Part shown: positions 2,054 to 22,723 of the stretch, one piece after another | How the letters are laid out: each line of letters begins with the position of its first letter | Position numbering within the stretch: position 1 is the stretch's first letter | Origin: Stentor roeselii | Lineage: Eukaryota; Ciliophora; Heterotrichea; Heterotrichida; Stentoridae | Assembly: GCA_006503475.1 (NCBI GenBank) | Contig: RSEH01000043.1 | Coordinates: 1-64,000, forward strand | Direction: 5' to 3' | DNA length: 64,000 nucleotides | Notes under the pieces: model-generated | Databases searched by the model: none | What the model was told of the DNA's origin: nothing | What the model saw: the letters and a program-made list of their open reading frames with translations, nothing else | Program-made: the position numbers and the translations under genes

Positions 2054-4561
2054 ATGACCGAAGGATCAGTTCAAGAAAAGTACAACCATTTCACCCTAGT
2101 TATTTTCATAAACAACCATCAATCCTACGTGCAACTAAAAGACGTTTTAGACTACAACGGTGAAGAGTTGACAATAGATGATATCCAGATCGGTGACCTT
2201 GTCTTATTCCAAAACGAAAAATACTACATTCAAAAGCCAAAACTTTACCCGATAAGCCTAATCGAAGCCCATCCTTACTACAACTACTTCAAAAAAGACT
2301 TCATCTTAGACTTCACCCATTTCCGCAAAATCCAATCAGGCGAAAGATGCCGAGACCTGACAATCGGAATCTCCTTGATCGAGTCTATTGTAATCAACAA
2401 GTCATCATCAACTCTGGAAAAACTGAGAAATATGGGCCTTCCTGATTCTCCAGTGGTAAAAATTGCTGAATATCTTAAAAGCAACATGGAAGCGAATTGC
2501 AAAATTGATCAAATTTTGATGAAAATCGAGAGCAAACTACTTTTAATTGAAATTTTTGCAAGTGAGTTGAGGATGATGTATGGAGAAGATGATTTATTTA
2601 CTCAGCTGGACATTTGTCTTTGCAGGTTTAATAGTAACTTGGAGTACGTCGGAGGAAACAATCAGTATTTTGAGAATCGAATCGATTTGCTATGCACAAA
2701 TCAAAATAATTACTGGATTTTATATAAAAAAGACTTCTTTTTCGCCCTTCCTAACAAAAATCTGGAATTTCTTCTGAAAATCGACCCAAGGCCTTCGAAG
2801 GAACTAAAAAAAAAAATGATTGATGAAAAAACTGAAGAAATTGAAAATTTAATTTTAAAGGTTGTTGAAAAAGCAGTAAATTTTGGAGTTTTTGAAACAG
2901 TTCACAAAGCAACTGATGATTACTTCAAGTATGATGAAACAATTAATTCTAGAAAATTTCATGAAACTGTTCGAAAAATTGAATGTTTTTGTTGTCGTGC
3001 AATAATAAAAGACGATGAAGTCAAACTGCCTTGCGGTCACAAGTTTCGTTTGAATTGTTTCGTGCAGCGAGTTTTAAACCTGACTAACCAAAAAGTCGTT
3101 TTACTAGAAGAAGAAAAAGCCAGTCTTCAACCTTTGGCCTGCATTTGTAACGAGCCGATTCCTGAAGAAATTTTAAAAAAAAACATCTCTAACTACTCAA
3201 AATACTTGAAAGACTCCGAAGCGCGAATTCGAATAAACTGCAAAAAATGTGGATATCGACTAGAAAAAAAAGCATTTCTCACAAAATGCATGGACTACTG
3301 CATCACCTGTCAAATCCTAATCATGAGACTCGGTTATTTCGAGACTTGCTACTATTGCAAAGAGAAAATCACAGCGCAAGAGATGAGTGCTTTGAGTAAT
3401 GTGAAAATTAAATGTGATAAATGCAATAGTAACCTTCCTAGTCTTCAGGCATTTCCTTATCTTATCTGTGAGCATAACTTTTGCTTTAAATGTGCCAAGT
3501 CCTGCTTGATCAATGAAAATAAATGGAACTGTACAAAAGGCTGCAAACAAGAAATTGATATTGACCAGGCGTATTGGTATTTAAAGGGCCAGTGCATCAA
3601 TTGCAAAAAGGAATTTTTCAAGTATGAAGATTTTTTCATGTATAAAAACTGCAATTGTCTCACTTGCAAGGACTGCATGATTCAATCAAAAGAAAACAAA
3701 TGTGAAATATGCAAGATTCCTTATTCTGGGTATATTCAGTACTTACTTCAAGAATTTAAAGACCTGAAAGCAAAAAGAATGAGAGATTGTCCTGTTTGTG
3801 GAGAAAAAAAAGACATCGATGATATGATCATGTTTCAAAACTGTGCACATTTTATTTGTCCTGATTGCATGAAAGGAACTGCAAAGGCTGCATATGAAAA
3901 TTCAGAAATTATCAAAATTTTTAAATGTTTCGATCCTGAATGTAACGCTGCCATCTCAGAAGAACAACTAGAAGAGTTTTTCTCTTTGCATAAAAAAAAC
4001 CTGCTTGAAAGTACTGAAGAAAATAACTACTGGGACAAGGTTAACTACTTGAAAATCAAACAGGACATCAAACTTTCCAAATGTCCCAAATGTCCTGCTG
4101 AGTTTTTGACTGGAAAAGCAAGACGTGTGATTTGCTTTAGTTGTGGATATAATTATTGTACTAAGTGCTTTGAGGACTTTCATCCACCTGATGATAGTTG
4201 TCAGTCGACGTTTATTAAGAGAAGGATTGCTGAGATTGAAACAATGTATCCTAATGAACCGATTTCACAGTGCCCTGAGTGCAAAAGTCCTTTTTTGAAA
4301 GATGATCATTGCAATCATGTGACGTGTAAGGACTGCAAGATTGACTTTTGTTTTGTTTGCTCTGCTATTAGAAGTCCTATCTTGGCTCATGGAAATCATT
4401 ATCATCGGCCTCAATGTACTGACTATGGAGCTCTTCCGAAAGGTGAAGTTGATAAAGTTAGTGATAAATGCACTCAGTGTGTCAAAGTGAATGGGATATG
4501 TCCAAGGCCGGCTAATTTAGCTGTTAGAGGAAGATATGCGGATGGGGAGACTGGATATTAA
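2054..4561 (+). CDS. RBR-type E3 ubiquitin ligase with extra Cys-rich clusters
   Basis: An 835-residue protein predicted to transfer ubiquitin through a RING1-IBR-RING2 module. RING1 starts near residue 579 (CPVCGEKKD, then CAHFICPDC), the IBR follows (CPKCPAEF, CFSCGYNYCTKC), and RING2 starts near residue 739 (CPECKSPF) with the DDHCNH segment near residue 752. In RBR ligases of the parkin/HHARI type the cysteine at that spot carries the ubiquitin thioester, and it is present here. Upstream, from about residue 310, lie further Cys/His clusters (CFCCRAI...CGHKF and several CxxC pairs up to residue 570), so the protein has more zinc-binding units than a minimal RBR. The N-terminal 300 residues have no recognised domain. 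The ATG follows an A-rich leader and the frame is uninterrupted. The RBR call is firm; substrate and pathway are unknown. Confidence 0.88.
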   Translation: MTEGSVQEKYNHFTLVIFINNHQSYVQLKDVLDYNGEELTIDDIQIGDLVLFQNEKYYIQKPKLYPISLIEAHPYYNYFKKDFILDFTHFRKIQSGERCRDLTIGISLIESIVINKSSSTLEKLRNMGLPDSPVVKIAEYLKSNMEANCKIDQILMKIESKLLLIEIFASELRMMYGEDDLFTQLDICLCRFNSNLEYVGGNNQYFENRIDLLCTNQNNYWILYKKDFFFALPNKNLEFLLKIDPRPSKELKKKMIDEKTEEIENLILKVVEKAVNFGVFETVHKATDDYFKYDETINSRKFHETVRKIECFCCRAIIKDDEVKLPCGHKFRLNCFVQRVLNLTNQKVVLLEEEKASLQPLACICNEPIPEEILKKNISNYSKYLKDSEARIRINCKKCGYRLEKKAFLTKCMDYCITCQILIMRLGYFETCYYCKEKITAQEMSALSNVKIKCDKCNSNLPSLQAFPYLICEHNFCFKCAKSCLINENKWNCTKGCKQEIDIDQAYWYLKGQCINCKKEFFKYEDFFMYKNCNCLTCKDCMIQSKENKCEICKIPYSGYIQYLLQEFKDLKAKRMRDCPVCGEKKDIDDMIMFQNCAHFICPDCMKGTAKAAYENSEIIKIFKCFDPECNAAISEEQLEEFFSLHKKNLLESTEENNYWDKVNYLKIKQDIKLSKCPKCPAEFLTGKARRVICFSCGYNYCTKCFEDFHPPDDSCQSTFIKRRIAEIETMYPNEPISQCPECKSPFLKDDHCNHVTCKDCKIDFCFVCSAIRSPILAHGNHYHRPQCTDYGALPKGEVDKVSDKCTQCVKVNGICPRPANLAVRGRYADGETGY

Positions 4562-8762: not shown

Positions 8763-10202
8763 ATGGGCTGTCAAAACACGACTCCTCTCTCAAGACCGAT
8801 ATCTCACCCGACAAGCCAGCCAGTGATAAGCGAGAAGCCGCATGTTCCATTCACCCGAAGCAAGACGAACCGTCAAATAAAATCCGAGATGGGTTCGATA
8901 ATGGACCACTTCAAGGTGTTAAAAGCAATCGGAACAAACCGTTTAGGAACTACTCTTTACGCGAAAGACATCCACACAGGTACCTTCCGAGCGATTCGCG
9001 AGGTAAACAAGTCGCTTTTGCGAGAAGAACATGAGACTTACAATGAAATTGAAATTCTGAAAGACTTCGACCATCCGAACATTATAAAGTCTTATCAAAC
9101 AATAGAGACTTCGATAAACTATTACGTTGTTTTTGAGTACTTGAATGGAGGCAACTTGAAATCGAAAGTAAAAAGAAATGGAAATGAGGTGACTTTATCG
9201 AAGCATATTCATGAAGTGATAAGTGCTTTGAATTACATGCATATTCAAAAAGTTGTTCATTGCAACTTGAACCCGGACAATATCTTGTTTTCAGTCGATC
9301 AAGAAGAATGCTTGGCGAAAATCGTCGGGTTTAACTACTCTCAAAGACTTGAAGACTTACACCCGATAGATATGAAAAATTTGGCTTATTTTTACGTTTC
9401 TCCTGAAATGCTGAAAAAGTCATTCAATGAAAAAACTGATCTTTGGAGTTTAGGGGTTATTGTCTATGAGTTACTTGTGGGTAAACCGCCTTATGTTTCT
9501 AAAGACAAACATGATATCGTCAAAGAGATTTATAGAGGAGAAGTCGACTTGGCCAACCCGAACTTCACCAACTTGTCATTCAATGCTCAGGACTTCATCA
9601 AAAAACTACTCAACCCGAATCAAGAAGAGCGAATGTCAGCGAAAGAAGCCCTGGCCCACCCTTGGCTGTCTTTAAGTGCAAAGGAATACATTTTGAACTA
9701 CGAAGCGATGATGAAACTTAGAAATTTTAAGGTATGAGTCACGCAGATTAAGTCAAATATCACGAGAGAGTTCTTAAAACTCATTAATTCAAGTATCGAT
9801 ATTAAAGACCATGAAATCATCTCTGTTTTCAAGAATTTGGATACGGACTGTGACGGGTTTATTACTAAAGATGAAGTCGTTGAAACTTTTAGAATGGTTG
9901 GAATTGACGCTAGCAATGAAATCAATGCGATTATGAATAATGTTGATATTGATGGAAGTGGAGAACTTGACTTTACTGAAATTAAAATCGCACTTACTGA
10001 TTGGGAAGTTGAAATCTCTGAAGAACTACTGAAAAATGTACTCAGGGCTGAAGGTGAAGATGTGCAGGTCAGTGAATTGAGACATATTTTTGAAGAGATC
10101 CTTCCGCATGAATGGAATGATTTCAGTAAAAAGGTGAAGGTGCAAGAAGGTAAAGCTTTGATCAAAAATCTGAAAGAGTACCTCTTAAATAACTTAGAAT
10201 AG
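8763..10202 (+). CDS. CDPK-like EF-hand pseudokinase, copy 1 (two exons)
   Basis: Exons 8763-9731 and 9747-10202 join across a 15-nt intron to give 474 residues. The start MGC fits N-myristoylation with a palmitoylatable cysteine, so membrane attachment is likely. Residues about 50-301 form a CDPK/CaMK-type kinase fold: the gatekeeper region, SPE motif (213-215), DLWSLG helix and C-lobe are intact. The catalytic residues are not. The VAIK lysine is Arg79; the HRD loop reads HCNLNPDN (166-173), with Asn168 for the catalytic Asp; DFG reads GFN (189-191). The glycine loop is reduced to GTNRLG. After the intron come two canonical EF-hands, 355-366 (DTDCDGFITKDE) and 390-401 (DIDGSGELDFTE), then a region where EF3-EF4 would lie but calcium ligands are missing. 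It is therefore probably a Ca2+-binding scaffold or regulator rather than an active kinase. Copy 2 starts 48 bp downstream. Confidence 0.93.
9732..9746 (+). other. 15-nt intron in pseudokinase copy 1
   Basis: gtatgagtcacgcag, phase 0, between kinase and EF-hand halves. Retention would add an in-frame TGA. A is at position 10 and C before the final AG. Copy 2 has an intron at the same codon boundary (after NFK). Confidence 0.95.
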
Positions 10203-10250
10203 CTTTCATAATTCAGAATGGTGAACAGTCAATTTCTTTAAATTACATAA

Positions 10251-11696
10251 ATGGGATGCCAAAACTCTTTGCAGGCCTCAAAACCAGTACTTTCGAAAAG
10301 CCAAAGCGAGATTATTCAAGTGAGTCATCAGAAAATTGCGATTCGGTCAATTCGAATCAACCGTTCACTGACATCAATCCAAAGCCTAATAACAGACCAC
10401 TTCAAAATCCTGAAAGTAATCGGTACAAACCGTCTCGGTTCAACATTTTACGCACAAGACCTTCATACAGGTACTTTCCGAGCGATTCGAGAAGTTCGAA
10501 AGAGTTTACTAAGCGAGAGTTTTGAAGGTTATAACGAAATTACAATCCTAAAGGACTTCGACCATCCAAACATAGTAAAATCATATCAAGCAATAGAAAC
10601 ATCTCACAATTTCTACGGTGTTTTCGAGTACTTAAACGGTGGATCACTCGATCAGAAAGTGAGAGGCGGTCGAAACGAAGTAAACATTTCGAAGTTCATT
10701 CATAATGTCCTCAGCGCACTGCATTATATTCATCTTCAGGGTGTTGTTCACTGCAACTTGACCCCAAGAAATATCTTATTGTTAGATGAGGACAGCGAAT
10801 GTATTGCAAAAGTCGTCGGCTTCAACCATTCTCGAGCTTTTGACAACCTTCAACCTGTGGACTTGAAACTTATTTCTTTCATTCATTCTTCACCAGAAAT
10901 GCTGAAAGACCAGTATAATGAAAAGACTGATATGTGGAGTCTTGGTATCATTGTTTATGAATTACTTGTTGGAAAACCTCCTTACAACGGAAAAAATAAC
11001 CAGGAAGTCCTTAAAGAAGTTTATAATGCGGAGGTGGATTTAAACAACCAGAACTTTAATGAACTTAGCTTTAATGCACAGGATTTTATTAAGAAACTCT
11101 TGCAAACTGACCCTATTTTAAGACTTTCGGCAAAAGAAGCACTTGGACATCCTTGGGTGTCCCTGGGAACTAAAGAAAATGCGATTAACTCTGAAGCAAT
11201 GATGAGACTTAGGAACTTTAAGGTATTTGATAAGTAGATCAAGTCTAATGTGACGAAAGAAGTCTTGAAAATGATTAACTCGAAAATTGCTTTAAAGGAA
11301 CATGAAATTGTTTCAGTTTTTCAGGATCTGGATAATGACTGCAATGGGTACTTGTCTAAGGAAGAGATCGTTGATGGATTTCAAATCGTTGGAATTGATG
11401 CCTCTACTGAAATTGACACTATTATGAATAATGTTGATATTGATGGAAGTGGATTTTTGGATTTCAGTGAAATTAAAATTGCTTTGACTGACTGGGAATC
11501 TGAGATCATTAAAAATAACGTGTTGGTCAGATTGATTCAATTTCACTCTGGATTCGCGTTATTAAAAGATCTGAAAGAATGCCTTCCAGAAGTTTTGCCT
11601 CACGAATGGAACGAGTTCACGATGAAGACTCGAGTCACAGAAGGAAAAGTTTCCTTGGAAAGTCTTCAAGAATACATATTAAGCAGTCTTAGATAG
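10251..11696 (+). CDS. CDPK-like EF-hand pseudokinase, copy 2 (two exons)
   Basis: Exons 10251-11222 and 11238-11696 give 476 residues, closely similar to the preceding gene along its whole length, so this is a tandem duplicate. MGCQN at the N-terminus again predicts myristoylation and palmitoylation. The same catalytic positions are lost: Arg80 for the VAIK lysine, HCNLTPRN (167-174) for HRDxKxxN, and GFN (190-192) for DFG. The loop Asn174 and the structural SPE and DMWSLG motifs remain. Two canonical EF-hands follow (DNDCNGYLSKEE and DIDGSGFLDFSE); the last two EF-hand positions are degenerate. That both copies keep fold and EF-hands while lacking the same catalytic residues indicates loss before duplication and continued selection on a non-catalytic role (inference). 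The stop TAG abuts the ATG of the tubby-like gene directly. Confidence 0.93.
11223..11237 (+). other. 15-nt intron in pseudokinase copy 2
   Basis: gtatttgataagtag, phase 0, at the same place as in copy 1 (after the codon for Lys in RNFK). A at position 10. Retention adds an in-frame TAG at its end. Confidence 0.95.
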
Positions 11697-13016
11697 ATGA
11701 TTATAATCGACATGTTCTGCAAGAGAGAGTTCCTCGATGACAGTTCATCATCTGAAGACATCAGCACGACTCAATCAAACCCAACAAACAGGTCGTCAGA
11801 CGTTCACGAAACCATCCCAGTGAAAGTGATTCCAAAGCCTCCATCAACAAGACCAATTTCAGCCAATGCTCGAATTATATCAATCCAAAGAGCTAAACTT
11901 CTAAACCGTGGAAAAGATTCAGTAAGAGTCGAAACCAGTCCATTCTTCAGAAGTTCTCCATCAAATTTTCCCCCCATAAACGACCCCCAAATAATTCGAG
12001 CAGAATCAATCTTCGAAGGGTCAAAGACAGAAGCAAAATCAAACCTTTTAAAAAATGAAGACCTGAAAGTCGATGAAATCGAAGAAATCAAGATAAACGA
12101 TTTCGTGCAAGTCAAAGAAAAAACTCCTGTCAAGAGCTTTTTACGGCCGGAGTCTCCTGAAAGAATCGACCCGAGCATTAGAAAGACGGAGAGTAGAAAT
12201 AGCGAAATCACTCCAGAGCCCAGGTATCAAAGAATGACAGTCCAACCCAATCGCGGCCTTAGAGAAAGACCAACCAGTCACCAATCACAACGACGACAAA
12301 GCGAGTTCAAAACAGTGACAACTGTTTCCATTAAAAAACTGTCAAATTCTAGTCTTTCTATCTCCCCTGACTTTAAAACAAGTGCATTTTTACCTGTTCC
12401 TCAAGGGTCTAGTCTTCAAATCGTGATAAACAAGGTGAAAGATGAGGTTTCTAAGAAAAGTTCAGAATTTACTGTAAAGTTAATGTCGACTGGACTTTTA
12501 ATGTTTTCAGGAAAAAGAAGAAAATCGGGAAATTTTTTGTTTTCTTTGAAAGAAAATGAATTTTCGAAGAAATCGGAAAATTTTCTTGGAAGGATCTCGA
12601 AAAATGATAGGGTTTTTAGATTTTTTGACTTTGGGACTAAGGTTAAAAGTGGGGAAAATGGAAGGAAACAGTATGGAACTTGTGTTTATGTAAGGAATAT
12701 TTAGGAAAAAGATACGTTTTTTGTTGTGGTGCCTAAAGTTGTTGATAATAAAATCGTTGAACTTAGACCAAAACTTGTTGAATGCAACTTTGGACCGGCT
12801 TTAAGTGAAAAATTCTTTCAGAAGAGGATTAAAGCTACTGGAATACTTTTTTCTAAGAAAAATTTTGTGGTGACTGATGAGAAAGATATTGGGGATTATG
12901 TGAAAATGGAAAAAACTCGGAGTAGAACTTTTAGGTTGGCGGTTTTTTCACCTTTTTCTCCTTTTCAAGCTGTTTGCATAGCTTTGACTCGGTTTGAGAA
13001 GATTATTAAGGACTGA
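11697..13016 (+). CDS. Tubby-like protein (two exons)
   Basis: Exons 11697-12689 and 12705-13016 give 434 residues. Residues about 1-235 are Ser/Thr/Pro-rich and probably disordered. The C-terminal 200 residues match the tubby domain in outline: an early beta strand region (TVKLMSTGLLMFSGKRRKSG), NFLGRISKN, YGTCVY, then VVVPKVVD, and the terminal signature FSPFSPFQAVCIALTRFE, comparable to the LSALQAFAIALSSF ending of tubby/TULP proteins. Those proteins bind phosphoinositides and, in ciliated cells, deliver membrane cargo to cilia; that role here is inferred. The final residues are KIIKD rather than the usual KLACE-type ending. The first ATG directly follows the stop of the upstream gene; ATG at 11712 is an alternative start. 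The stop is TGA. Confidence 0.82.
12690..12704 (+). other. 15-nt intron in tubby-like gene
   Basis: gtaaggaatatttag, phase 0, within the tubby domain between CVY and EKDTFFVVVPK. A at position 10. Retention adds an in-frame TAG. Removing it restores the continuous beta-strand run typical of the family. Confidence 0.93.
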
Positions 13017-14762: not shown

Positions 14763-15752
14763 CTAGCCCAGCTTCTTACTTAATATAGTTAAATTCTTCT
14801 GAACTGACTTCATATTTTCAGCAATTCCCAACTTGAGTTCTTTAAGCGCTTCAAGAGATTCCTTAATCCTTTCTTCAAGTGCTCCAGTATTCGCCTCATA
14901 ACAAGAAAGCGCTTTATGAACACTGACACTTTTCAAGTAAACCGGATGAAAAATCTTGAATTTTTCCACAATTTCCGGAATTCCTTTAGTTCCATCAAAG
15001 AACGGTAAAGTTTCATAACTCAACTTTTCAATAAGAGCTAAGTTTTCATCAGAAGCAGTTCCCAGATTATTACAATTCGAGAGCATGTCTTCCAAGTCGT
15101 TTTGCAAATGTCTTGACTCTTCTTTTATTTTTTTCAGCAGGTTTTTATTGATAAGGTTTGTTTTAAACACGAGTGCCGAGATGCTGCGGCCGACAGGCTG
15201 AGGCTCTTCCCACTTCCCAAGTGCATTTTCAAGTTCAGTCACATGATTATGAAGCTCTACAAGTTTCTGCTGCTCTAAAAAATTCGAAATTTCCACCTCA
15301 AATTTAATCCCTTTAGAACTTCCAGGATTTTCCACAGGTTTCGCTTTCGGGAACTTGACTTTTCCAGGTTTAGTGACTTTTTTCCCTTTTTTCATCTTTT
15401 CCTTGATTTTTTTTAGTTTTGATGCTAAAATTTCGATTTCCTCTGAATTTTCTTTATATTCCGGATGATTTTTCCCTAGTTGTTCAGTTTCTAATGAAAG
15501 TTTTTGTAGTTCTTCCTCGGCTAGGGCGATTTTTCGTATTTTGTCGCGGGATTGTTTATCCCAGATGTTATCTTGAGTCTTTTTTTGGCCGTAAAGAGTG
15601 TTGAAAAGTTCGACTCTTTCCTTGAAACTGGCTTCGCAAGGGTGTTGAACGAGGCCTGATGTCTTTGTGATCACAATTGGACGGCTTTCTAGGTTGATCT
15701 CGTCAATGCTCTTCTGAGGGTCGGGGCTTTCCAGGACTGAAGTTTTTTCCAT
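14763..15752 (-). CDS. Coiled-coil protein, possible dynactin subunit 2 (dynamitin)
   Basis: A 329-residue protein. The N-terminal 60 residues are unstructured in appearance, then comes a helix rich in K and E (about 65-125), a Lys/Pro linker (KGKKVTKPGKVKFPKAKP), and a C-terminal half of coiled-coil segments. The segment LVELHNHVTELENALGKWE followed by repeated predicted helices ending LKELKLGIAENMKSVQKN resembles the layout of dynamitin, where an ELE-x-xLG helix opens the coiled-coil region. No catalytic motif is present. Dynamitin would act in the dynein-dynactin cargo complex. The resemblance is modest and a generic coiled-coil protein cannot be excluded. It lies 17 bp downstream of the next - gene (15770-16426). 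Confidence 0.8.
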   Translation of the reverse strand: MEKTSVLESPDPQKSIDEINLESRPIVITKTSGLVQHPCEASFKERVELFNTLYGQKKTQDNIWDKQSRDKIRKIALAEEELQKLSLETEQLGKNHPEYKENSEEIEILASKLKKIKEKMKKGKKVTKPGKVKFPKAKPVENPGSSKGIKFEVEISNFLEQQKLVELHNHVTELENALGKWEEPQPVGRSISALVFKTNLINKNLLKKIKEESRHLQNDLEDMLSNCNNLGTASDENLALIEKLSYETLPFFDGTKGIPEIVEKFKIFHPVYLKSVSVHKALSCYEANTGALEERIKESLEALKELKLGIAENMKSVQKNLTILSKKLG

Positions 15753-21529: not shown

Positions 21530-22723
21530 CTAATTAGCGGCGGGCTTTTCACCGTTGTTTAGGCCTGACCTGGAGACTCTGTAGATCTTTATTGAATGCT
21601 TTGTCAGGACTGGGATGCTGATGGTCGAAGTCACTTGTTGGGTCTTGTCCCAAAGTTCTGTCACTTTTGCTGGCACTGGAATGCCGTACTCGGCTAAGTT
21701 CACTGTTGCTGTTATGTTGTAGTTACCCCAGTTTGTCACTGTTATTACGGAATCTCCACCGCTTAGATCTCCAACGAAGATGTTTGCCTCGCCTCCTAGG
21801 AAATAGTTGGCGTATGTGCAAGCTTTCTTGCAAACTGCTTGCTTCCCTAGTGGGTCTTGATTTATTGCTATTACGTCTGCATTTGATAGAATAGCCAGAG
21901 TATCACTACTCATTTTCGTCAAATCACACCCAATAATAAGTGGAGCCTTAACAGCAGCCCAAAGACTAAAATGAGTTTTATACTCATTACTAGTCATCCC
22001 TCCATTTCCAACTTCCAGCATATCAGGGTCATTCCAAGCTCCAGGAGCTGCTGCATTAGCATGCAAAGAATTTTCAAAAAAATTAAGAGCCATGCTGCTC
22101 CAAACATCTTTAATATCCTGAGTAGTCCTCCAGCTATTTCCAGTCTCAGGTCCCCAGTTCCAAGGCGATTCCTGTCCCCAATTACAAAGCGAGTAAAAAA
22201 TAGGTCTTCCGGTCTTGTTAAGCGCATCTCTCATAGCCGGGTACCTCTGAAGAGCAGGAAGGCCCTGATTGAAGCAATTATCGTATTTCAAGTAATCAAT
22301 TCCCCAGCTAGCGAAAGTATTCGCGTCAGTCACTTCATGGTTTAGAGACCCGGGGTACTCGGCGCATGTTAAATTCCCTGCGTCGGAATAGATTCCTAGC
22401 TTCAGGCCGAGACTGTGCACGAATGAGGCAAGGCTCGCCATTCCTGATGGAAATTTAGAAGGGTCGGGAACTATCTCGCCCTGAGCGTTTCGAGACTTGA
22501 GAGGCCAGCAGTCGTCGATGTTTATGTAGTTGTAGCCTAACTTGCTTAGACCCGATGATACTAAGGAGGAGGCTGCTCCTCGGATTACTGTCTCGTTTAT
22601 GTTGCAGGCGAAGTGGTTCCAAGAGTTCCAACCCATCTGGGGAGTACGCCCGAGACCGTTGTTGAGAGATGAACATTGGAGTAGAAAGGTTGTGATTAGT
22701 ATCAGCAGAGACCTGTAAGCCAT
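21530..22723 (-). CDS. Secreted alpha-galactosidase, glycoside hydrolase family 27
   Basis: A 397-residue enzyme that should remove terminal alpha-linked galactose (or N-acetylgalactosamine) from glycans. A signal peptide is evident (LLILITTFLLQCSSL), so it is secreted or goes to food vacuoles. The GH27 barrel begins GLGRTPQMGWNSWNHFAC. The nucleophile lies in YLKYDNC (Asp148) and the acid/base in WNDPDML (Asp234); both are present, as are IDDCW, AGNLTC and the paired cysteines. The C-terminal 100 residues form the beta-sandwich usual for the family. Length is normal for GH27. It shares a 44-bp divergent spacer with an MFS transporter, which may point to coordinated expression, though cargo of that transporter is unknown. 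Confidence 0.95.
   Translation of the reverse strand: MAYRSLLILITTFLLQCSSLNNGLGRTPQMGWNSWNHFACNINETVIRGAASSLVSSGLSKLGYNYINIDDCWPLKSRNAQGEIVPDPSKFPSGMASLASFVHSLGLKLGIYSDAGNLTCAEYPGSLNHEVTDANTFASWGIDYLKYDNCFNQGLPALQRYPAMRDALNKTGRPIFYSLCNWGQESPWNWGPETGNSWRTTQDIKDVWSSMALNFFENSLHANAAAPGAWNDPDMLEVGNGGMTSNEYKTHFSLWAAVKAPLIIGCDLTKMSSDTLAILSNADVIAINQDPLGKQAVCKKACTYANYFLGGEANIFVGDLSGGDSVITVTNWGNYNITATVNLAEYGIPVPAKVTELWDKTQQVTSTISIPVLTKHSIKIYRVSRSGLNNGEKPAAN

Follow-up and report, generated by a model that had tools for sequence, protein, structure and literature searches.

Plants, apicomplexans and ciliates rely on calcium-dependent protein kinases (CDPKs) as major decoders of Ca2+ signals, and in the cell type represented by Stentor Ca2+ controls contraction as well as ciliary beating. 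Here we analyze a pair of CDPK-type genes from Stentor roeselii that lies in a 64,000-nucleotide stretch of genomic DNA (assembly GCA_006503475.1, contig RSEH01000043.1, positions 1 to 64,000 of the forward strand), hereafter the window. The two genes are arranged in tandem on the plus strand, with copy 1 at positions 8763-10202, copy 2 at 10251-11696 and a gap of 48 bases between them. Each contains one 15-nucleotide GT...AG intron, and the spliced products of 474 (copy 1) and 476 (copy 2) amino acids are free of internal stops. Because each intron carries an in-frame stop, a mechanical list of open reading frames splits both genes between their kinase and EF-hand parts. In copy 1, exon 1 (8763..9731; delimited by open reading frame, Pfam and splicing) encodes a Met-Gly-Cys (MGC) N-terminus, a variable segment, the pseudokinase domain and the start of the junction. 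It is followed by an intron with an in-frame TGA (9732..9746) and by exon 2 (9747..10202; Pfam and alignment), which encodes the remaining junction, EF1, EF2, a degenerate C-terminal lobe and the stop codon TAG. Copy 2 repeats this arrangement with exon 1 (MGC N-terminus, pseudokinase domain and junction start; open reading frame and Pfam) at 10251..11222, an intron with an in-frame TAG at 11223..11237 and exon 2 (junction, EF1, EF2, degenerate C-terminal lobe and stop TAG; Pfam and alignment) at 11238..11696. At the sequence level, the Pfam Pkinase profile spans the whole domain in both copies (E 1.6e-52 for copy 1 and 2.4e-50 for copy 2), and the EF-hand pair is matched at E 5e-12 and 3.7e-10, respectively.

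Alignment confirms what a sequence-only reading of this DNA had described for the active site, namely that all three catalytic hallmarks are replaced in the same manner in both genes. The VAIK motif reads AIRE, with the Lys replaced by Arg (residue 79, 8997..8999 in copy 1; 10488..10490 in copy 2). The HRDLK of the catalytic loop has become HCNLN in copy 1 (HCN at residues 166-168, 9258..9266, with Asn for the catalytic-loop Lys) and HCNLT in copy 2 (10749..10757, with Thr for that Lys), and DFG has become GFN (residues 189-191, 9327..9335 in copy 1; 10818..10826 in copy 2). Additionally, the middle Gly of the Gly-loop (GTNRLG) is Asn, a conserved Gly preceding the APE motif (residue 207) is lost, and APE itself is SPE. 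Retention of two canonical EF-hands in both copies is likewise borne out by Pfam and alignment, with the EF1 and EF2 loops at 9840..9875 and 9945..9980 in copy 1 and at 11331..11366 and 11436..11471 in copy 2. The same reading had described the CDPK layout as intact-looking, which holds for the kinase domain and for EF1 and EF2; what it had overlooked is that the loops of EF3 and EF4 are gone (C-terminal lobe, 10011..10199 in copy 1). It had also proposed an N-myristoylation signal. The MGC start is indeed present in both copies (8763..8771 in copy 1), where it would permit myristoylation and palmitoylation, although lipidation itself is conjectural.

Stentor uses the standard genetic code and has 15-nucleotide introns. 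We rejected an alternative code as the explanation for the in-frame stops, since in five of five genes these stops sit within 15-nucleotide GT...AG introns and since TAA, TAG and TGA each terminate genes in the kinase set. In-frame TGA was present in one of 123 kinase matches listed in one search and in none of the 135 scored in another. The intron at the kinase/EF-hand boundary is 15 nucleotides long and occupies the same place in all five genes that have one, which are both window copies and the genes that we label L033, L034 and L048. An unspliced message from any of these five genes would yield a kinase part without EF-hands. Introns of 15-16 nucleotides are also described for Blepharisma, where TGA encodes Trp (PMC9942806).

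The tandem pair does not stand alone. When the 44.4-Mb, 522-contig assembly from which the window derives was searched with the kinase exon, ten genes scored at least 210 bits and the next 183, and a separate search with the EF-hand exon recovered the identical ten at 80 bits or more, followed by 53. Ten is a lower bound, as both searches scored the best candidates only, but the drop in scores argues that the set is closed. The set is made up of the two window copies, L033, L034, L035, L036, L037, L038, L039 and L040; thus the copies are adjacent, as the term tandem pair had implied, but they are only two members of a larger group. We built maximum-likelihood trees from 36 CDPKs of this genome after removing the catalytic columns and dropping the long-branched L069; 16 kinases without an EF-hand pattern were excluded together with L071 and L072, and STRAD was not included. 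The ten genes are monophyletic (support 100/100) and are joined with L048 and L070 at 99/99. These two relatives have kept the VAIK Lys, the HRD Asp, the catalytic-loop Lys and Asn, and DFG, with L048 reading HLD for HRD. The shared intron position in both copies, L033, L034 and L048 ties the clade to L048 independently of the tree. On contig C213, two other kinase genes lie between members L033 and L035 (L073, G000:C213:178540-184620); judged by eye, one is a 743-amino acid frame with ankyrin-like repeats and a kinase domain and the other a 402-amino acid PDK1-like kinase.

Origin from a CDPK, which had been proposed from the letters of the window, is supported by several agreeing lines. Clade members combine a CAMK-type kinase domain with a C-terminal calmodulin-like EF-hand part, the two features expected of a CDPK, and the junction between them is present (identity 0.53-0.66 in five clade pairs). 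The tree and Pfam agree with the nearest solved relatives, which are the CDPK1 structures PDB 9d8s and 3igo (E 1.6e-57 with copy 1, 1.4e-96 with a family profile) that we take to be from Cryptosporidium. The clade resembles these CDPKs in the order of kinase, junction and EF-hands and in EF1 and EF2, and differs from them by the lost catalytic residues and the lost EF3 and EF4 loops. The usual CDPK layout of four EF-hands in two lobes is therefore absent from the clade: by eye, none of the ten members retains the EF3 or EF4 loop, while among the intact relatives L048 lacks only EF3 and L070 has both. Two perfect Ca2+ sites are also not universal in the clade, as the third loop position of EF2 is Gly in L036 and L038. 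The MGC start is invariant (M1, G2 and C3 in ten of ten) and occurs in 13 of 26 active CDPKs as well.

Active-site changes are distributed unevenly across the clade. The position of the DFG Asp (189) is Gly in all ten members and the catalytic-loop Lys is lost in all ten. L037 and L040 retain both the HRD Asp and the VAIK Lys. Among the other eight, the HRD Asp is Asn in seven and Ser in L038, and the VAIK Lys is Arg in seven and Asn in L034. Consequently all three hallmarks (VAIK Lys, HRD Asp and DFG Asp) are gone in eight of the ten genes, both window copies included, with L037 and L040 reading HCD and GFT or GFS, respectively, and having altered Gly-loops. Since no member has the DFG Asp, the catalytic-loop Lys or the EF3/EF4 loops, the simplest history is that these losses predate the separation of the ten genes. 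Loss followed by duplication, as had been suggested for the pair, thus holds in that the losses are older than the two copies, but the pattern is older still and much of it is common to the entire clade. There is no need to suppose that the pattern arose anew in every gene, given that the ten genes form one clade. In the free tree L037 and L040 fall inside the clade with weak support (86/72), which requires two changes for the VAIK Lys and HRD Asp; a single loss of both residues, with L037 and L040 placed outside the other eight, is not rejected (approximately unbiased test, p-AU 0.305). The branch that leads to the clade is long (0.9).

The positions that have changed do not all behave alike. 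Residue 170, where the catalytic-loop Lys stood, varies freely across the ten genes (N, T, S, H, A, S, N, C, C, T). In contrast, residue 189 is fixed as Gly, and residue 213, the Ala position of APE, is fixed as Ser. Across the ten genes Gly189 is specified by all four Gly codons and Ser213 by TCN as well as AGY codons, a diversity which suggests that selection maintains the two residues. Fixation of 189 and 213 next to a variable position 170 suggests that the cleft is partly re-used and not simply dead. Residues of the regulatory spine are largely kept in the clade (Leu, His and Asp each in ten of ten, the DFG Phe in nine of ten). The VAIK Ala, which belongs to the catalytic spine, has been replaced by Thr or Ser in seven of ten members but persists in both window copies.

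Such losses are rare among the best-scoring kinases of this genome, to which both of our surveys were confined. A first survey comprised 54 distinct rows, made up of nine clade members (copy 2 was omitted as a duplicate locus and its residues were taken from other alignments), L069 and 44 others, not all of which are CDPKs since 16 lack an EF-hand pattern. The HRD Asp, the following Lys and Asn, and the DFG Asp are all present in 43 of these 44, the remaining one (L009) being unreadable, and the VAIK Lys is present in all 36 with a readable column. A second, profile-based survey, read at the HRD, Lys, Asn and DFG positions only, covered 89 further CDPK-like segments, including three that duplicate genes of the first survey; the HRD Asp, Lys, Asn and DFG Asp are all present in 81 of them. 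The eight that deviate (L094, L119, L130, L137, L146, L155, L157 and L162) show single or partial losses, for example HCN together with DFE in L094 and GFG in L146, and none lacks both the HRD Asp and the DFG Asp. Loss of catalytic residues therefore recurs in this kinome, and the occurrence of the same losses across ten paralogs when they are rare elsewhere indicates that the pattern is not due to chance. Eleven of the 89 segments have HRD, Lys and Asn intact and read DFD (six) or DFN (five) for DFG, and may constitute a subgroup with an altered DFG glycine. A first look with the Pkinase profile gave 1346 candidates, of which only 135 were scored, hinting at a very large kinome; a very large kinome has been reported for Stentor (PMC9371601).

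One further kinase lacks the catalytic residues. L069 (G000:C14:120714-122102, minus strand) is CDPK-like, has lost the VAIK Lys, HRD Asp, Lys, Asn and DFG Asp (HNH and GIG), and has kept four EF-hands. In a free tree it lies outside the ten-gene clade, although its inclusion is not rejected at the 0.05 level (p-AU 0.091, log-likelihood (lnL) 16.3 lower). Its nearest relative, L074 (contig C251, 41%), has an intact HRDLKPEN and NFS for DFG, and this intact HRDLKPEN favours a separate origin of L069.

We next consider what selection has kept. In 26 active CDPKs, 55 columns reach a conservation of 95% or more; of these the clade keeps 26 in all ten members, 22 are mixed and seven are changed in all ten. 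Those kept throughout include E95 of the alphaC helix, H166, K186, P214, D226, W228, G231 and R290 as well as EF1 and EF2 residues 355, 360, 366, 390, 395 and 401. The seven that are changed throughout are K170, D189, G191, G207, F402, an EF-hand Asp in the C-lobe and F465. Among the mixed columns G59, K79 and D168 are each retained in just two of ten members, and the non-catalytic Y50, Y221 and E112 vary too. With a pairwise GY94 codon likelihood implemented in a custom script, a ratio of nonsynonymous to synonymous substitution rates (omega) of 1 is rejected for the window pair over the full length (likelihood-ratio test statistic (LRT) 227.9), the kinase part (150.0) and EF1-2 (36.0), which upholds the contention that the copies are under selection and not in decay. 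Among full-length clade pairs omega = 1 is rejected in six of six (LRT 157-398), and of 36 tests on these six pairs (the whole protein plus five regions) one is non-significant, the C-terminal tail of L037/L040 (LRT 3.5). Synonymous divergence (dS) is saturated or nearly so, for which reason omega point values carry little meaning; such saturation indicates that the copies are old and that the genes have long been intact, and reading frames are intact after intron removal in all ten. Saturated dS and rejection of omega = 1 also led us to reject a recent duplication with early decay. In the clade EF1-2 is better conserved than the kinase, with a ratio of EF1-2 identity to kinase identity of 1.05-1.44 in five clade pairs, unlike most active pairs (0.65-1.00 in seven of eight, 1.06 in the eighth). 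At a kinase identity of 0.35-0.45, EF1-2 identity is 0.45 in 35 clade pairs versus 0.34 in 222 active pairs.

The catalytic site of these genes is thus dismantled, key residues of the fold and EF1/EF2 persist, and purifying selection acts on the genes. The explanation that we favour, with somewhat better than even confidence, is that the clade consists of lipid-anchored, Ca2+-switched pseudokinase regulators derived from a CDPK that signal by binding and not by phosphorylation. For the window copies a non-catalytic role is favoured by the loss of the VAIK Lys, the catalytic-loop Lys and a Gly of the Gly-loop. In the proposed mechanism the protein would sit at a membrane via its acylated MGC N-terminus, and Ca2+ on EF1 and EF2 would, much as in CDPKs, move the calmodulin-like part relative to the dead kinase. 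Membrane tethering and a switchable scaffold had both been put forward in the sequence-only reading and are conjectural. The output would then be a binding event, in which a partner, possibly an active kinase, is allosterically controlled or scaffolded in the manner of STRADalpha. The cleft with its uniform Gly at the DFG Asp position may have been partly re-purposed rather than abandoned. A more elaborate version of this proposal, which we hold only tentatively and consider less probable than not, treats these proteins as a class of Ca2+ sensor in its own right, lipid-anchored, with two EF-hands and with the dead kinase fold as effector. This class would have originated a single time, when the DFG Asp and the EF-hands of the C-lobe were lost together. 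A nucleotide pocket of the metal-free STRAD type would have persisted, the VAIK Lys and HRD Asp would have disappeared at a later stage, and radiation would have produced ten paralogs through which Ca2+ allosterically controls partner kinases with no phosphorylation by the sensor itself.

Known kinases with degenerate active sites bear on this proposal in different ways. STRADalpha is not known to have an EF-hand part, plant ILK1 is not known to have EF-hands in cis, and the motif of CASK is GFG. STRADalpha is also of other origin, the closest relatives of the clade by search being CDPKs. Its active site is nonetheless similar to that of the window copies, with a Gly-loop Gly lost, the VAIK Lys replaced by Arg, the HRD Asp lost, the DFG Asp replaced by Gly (GLR) and the alphaC Glu kept (PMC2686265). 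This STRADalpha-like pattern is, judging from these relationships, convergent and not due to descent from STRAD. STRADalpha is described as binding ATP without Mg2+, which holds it in a closed, partner-activating form (PMC2686265, PMC4718504), and by analogy it would be the closest mechanistic model for the window copies. CASK has a CaM-kinase-type domain without a DFG Asp that is reported to be active without cations and that keeps its Gly-loop and VAIK Lys (PMC4718504); the window copies keep neither, while L037 and L040 come nearer to CASK in that their VAIK Lys is kept. Plant ILK1, of the Raf-like MAP3K family, has HCD and GFG and prefers Mn2+, and its activity was raised by replacing the HRD Asp with Asn (PMC9403797). 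The altered ILK1 combines HCN with Gly for the DFG Asp, much like the HCN and GFN of the window copies.

These comparisons sustain the strongest competing explanation, which we regard as unlikely, that the clade consists of atypical active kinases that still transfer phosphate either without Mg2+, as in CASK, or with Mn2+, as in ILK1. The ILK1 substitution result raises the weight of this explanation and lowers that of binding without phosphorylation. Activity has likewise been reported for IRAK2, which has neither DFG nor HRD (PMC2686265), and L037 and L040 with their VAIK Lys, HCD and GFT/GFS fit such a mechanism. However, the window copies also lack the VAIK Lys, the catalytic-loop Lys and a Gly-loop Gly, and an intact Gly-loop and VAIK motif are given as the best predictors of activity (PMC4718504). 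A substitute Lys on beta-2, as in WNK kinases, can be rejected because it is not conserved, the residue being Lys in copy 1, Gln in copy 2 and Glu in L033.

Several observations weigh against regulation by binding as the function of the clade. By analogy with ILK1, IRAK2 and CASK, loss of residues need not prove inactivity, and L037 and L040, which keep the VAIK Lys and HRD Asp, would be the members most likely to be active. Loss of EF3 and EF4 could have broken the CDPK switch. The beta-4 position of the regulatory spine is Ser in both window copies, and kinase-part columns kept in all ten members number 18 of 39, so that change extends beyond the catalytic residues. STRADalpha, for its part, works together with MO25. 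Purifying selection is evidence for a function without saying which. The pairs behind the comparison of EF1-2 with the kinase are not independent, and the EF1-2 excess of the window pair is slight (0.68 versus 0.65).

A dead CDPK could alternatively serve as a decoy, which would withhold substrates, anchors or Ca2+ signals from active CDPKs and exert no allosteric effect itself. The architecture and the MGC start, which are those of many active CDPKs (13 of 26 for MGC), and the conservation of several kinase-fold residues would suit such a role. CDPK N-termini determine placement, and in six clade pairs they share only 23-44% identity; moreover, clade-specific invariant residues in the active site and the EF-hand part suggest a role of their own, and we consider a decoy rather improbable. 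Relaxed decay of redundant copies into pseudogenes might draw on the free drift of some catalytic positions (K170) and the stem branch of 0.9, but it is very hard to reconcile with ten intact reading frames, saturated dS and rejection of omega = 1 in all six full-length pairs tested, and is highly improbable.

If regulation by binding is correct, the clade would be a preserved family that discarded the enzyme but retained the Ca2+ sensor, and would demonstrate that binding alone can suffice for CDPK signalling. The clade and its relatives also provide a natural series from the intact L048 and L070 through the intermediates L037 and L040 to full losses, in which the order of loss of catalysis and of EF-hands can be addressed. 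Inactive kinases commonly make up about 9% of kinomes, and Phytophthora infestans is credited with 32, three of them CAMK (PMC3019232), and the ciliate Ichthyophthirius with 38 unclassified likely pseudokinases (PMC3341644); in the portions of these accounts consulted, the inactive kinases are not described as EF-hand CDPKs. Among the titles and abstract openings listed in literature searches on CDPKs and pseudokinases, none describes a CDPK that lacks all three sites, though a Stentor kinome preprint may already list these genes.

Other genes are also found in the window. Directly downstream of the pair, positions 11697-12704 give a sub-threshold match to the Tub family, and 14763-15752 encode a dynamitin-like protein. 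A protein with an IBR domain is encoded at 2054-4561 and an alpha-galactosidase-like protein at 21530-22723.

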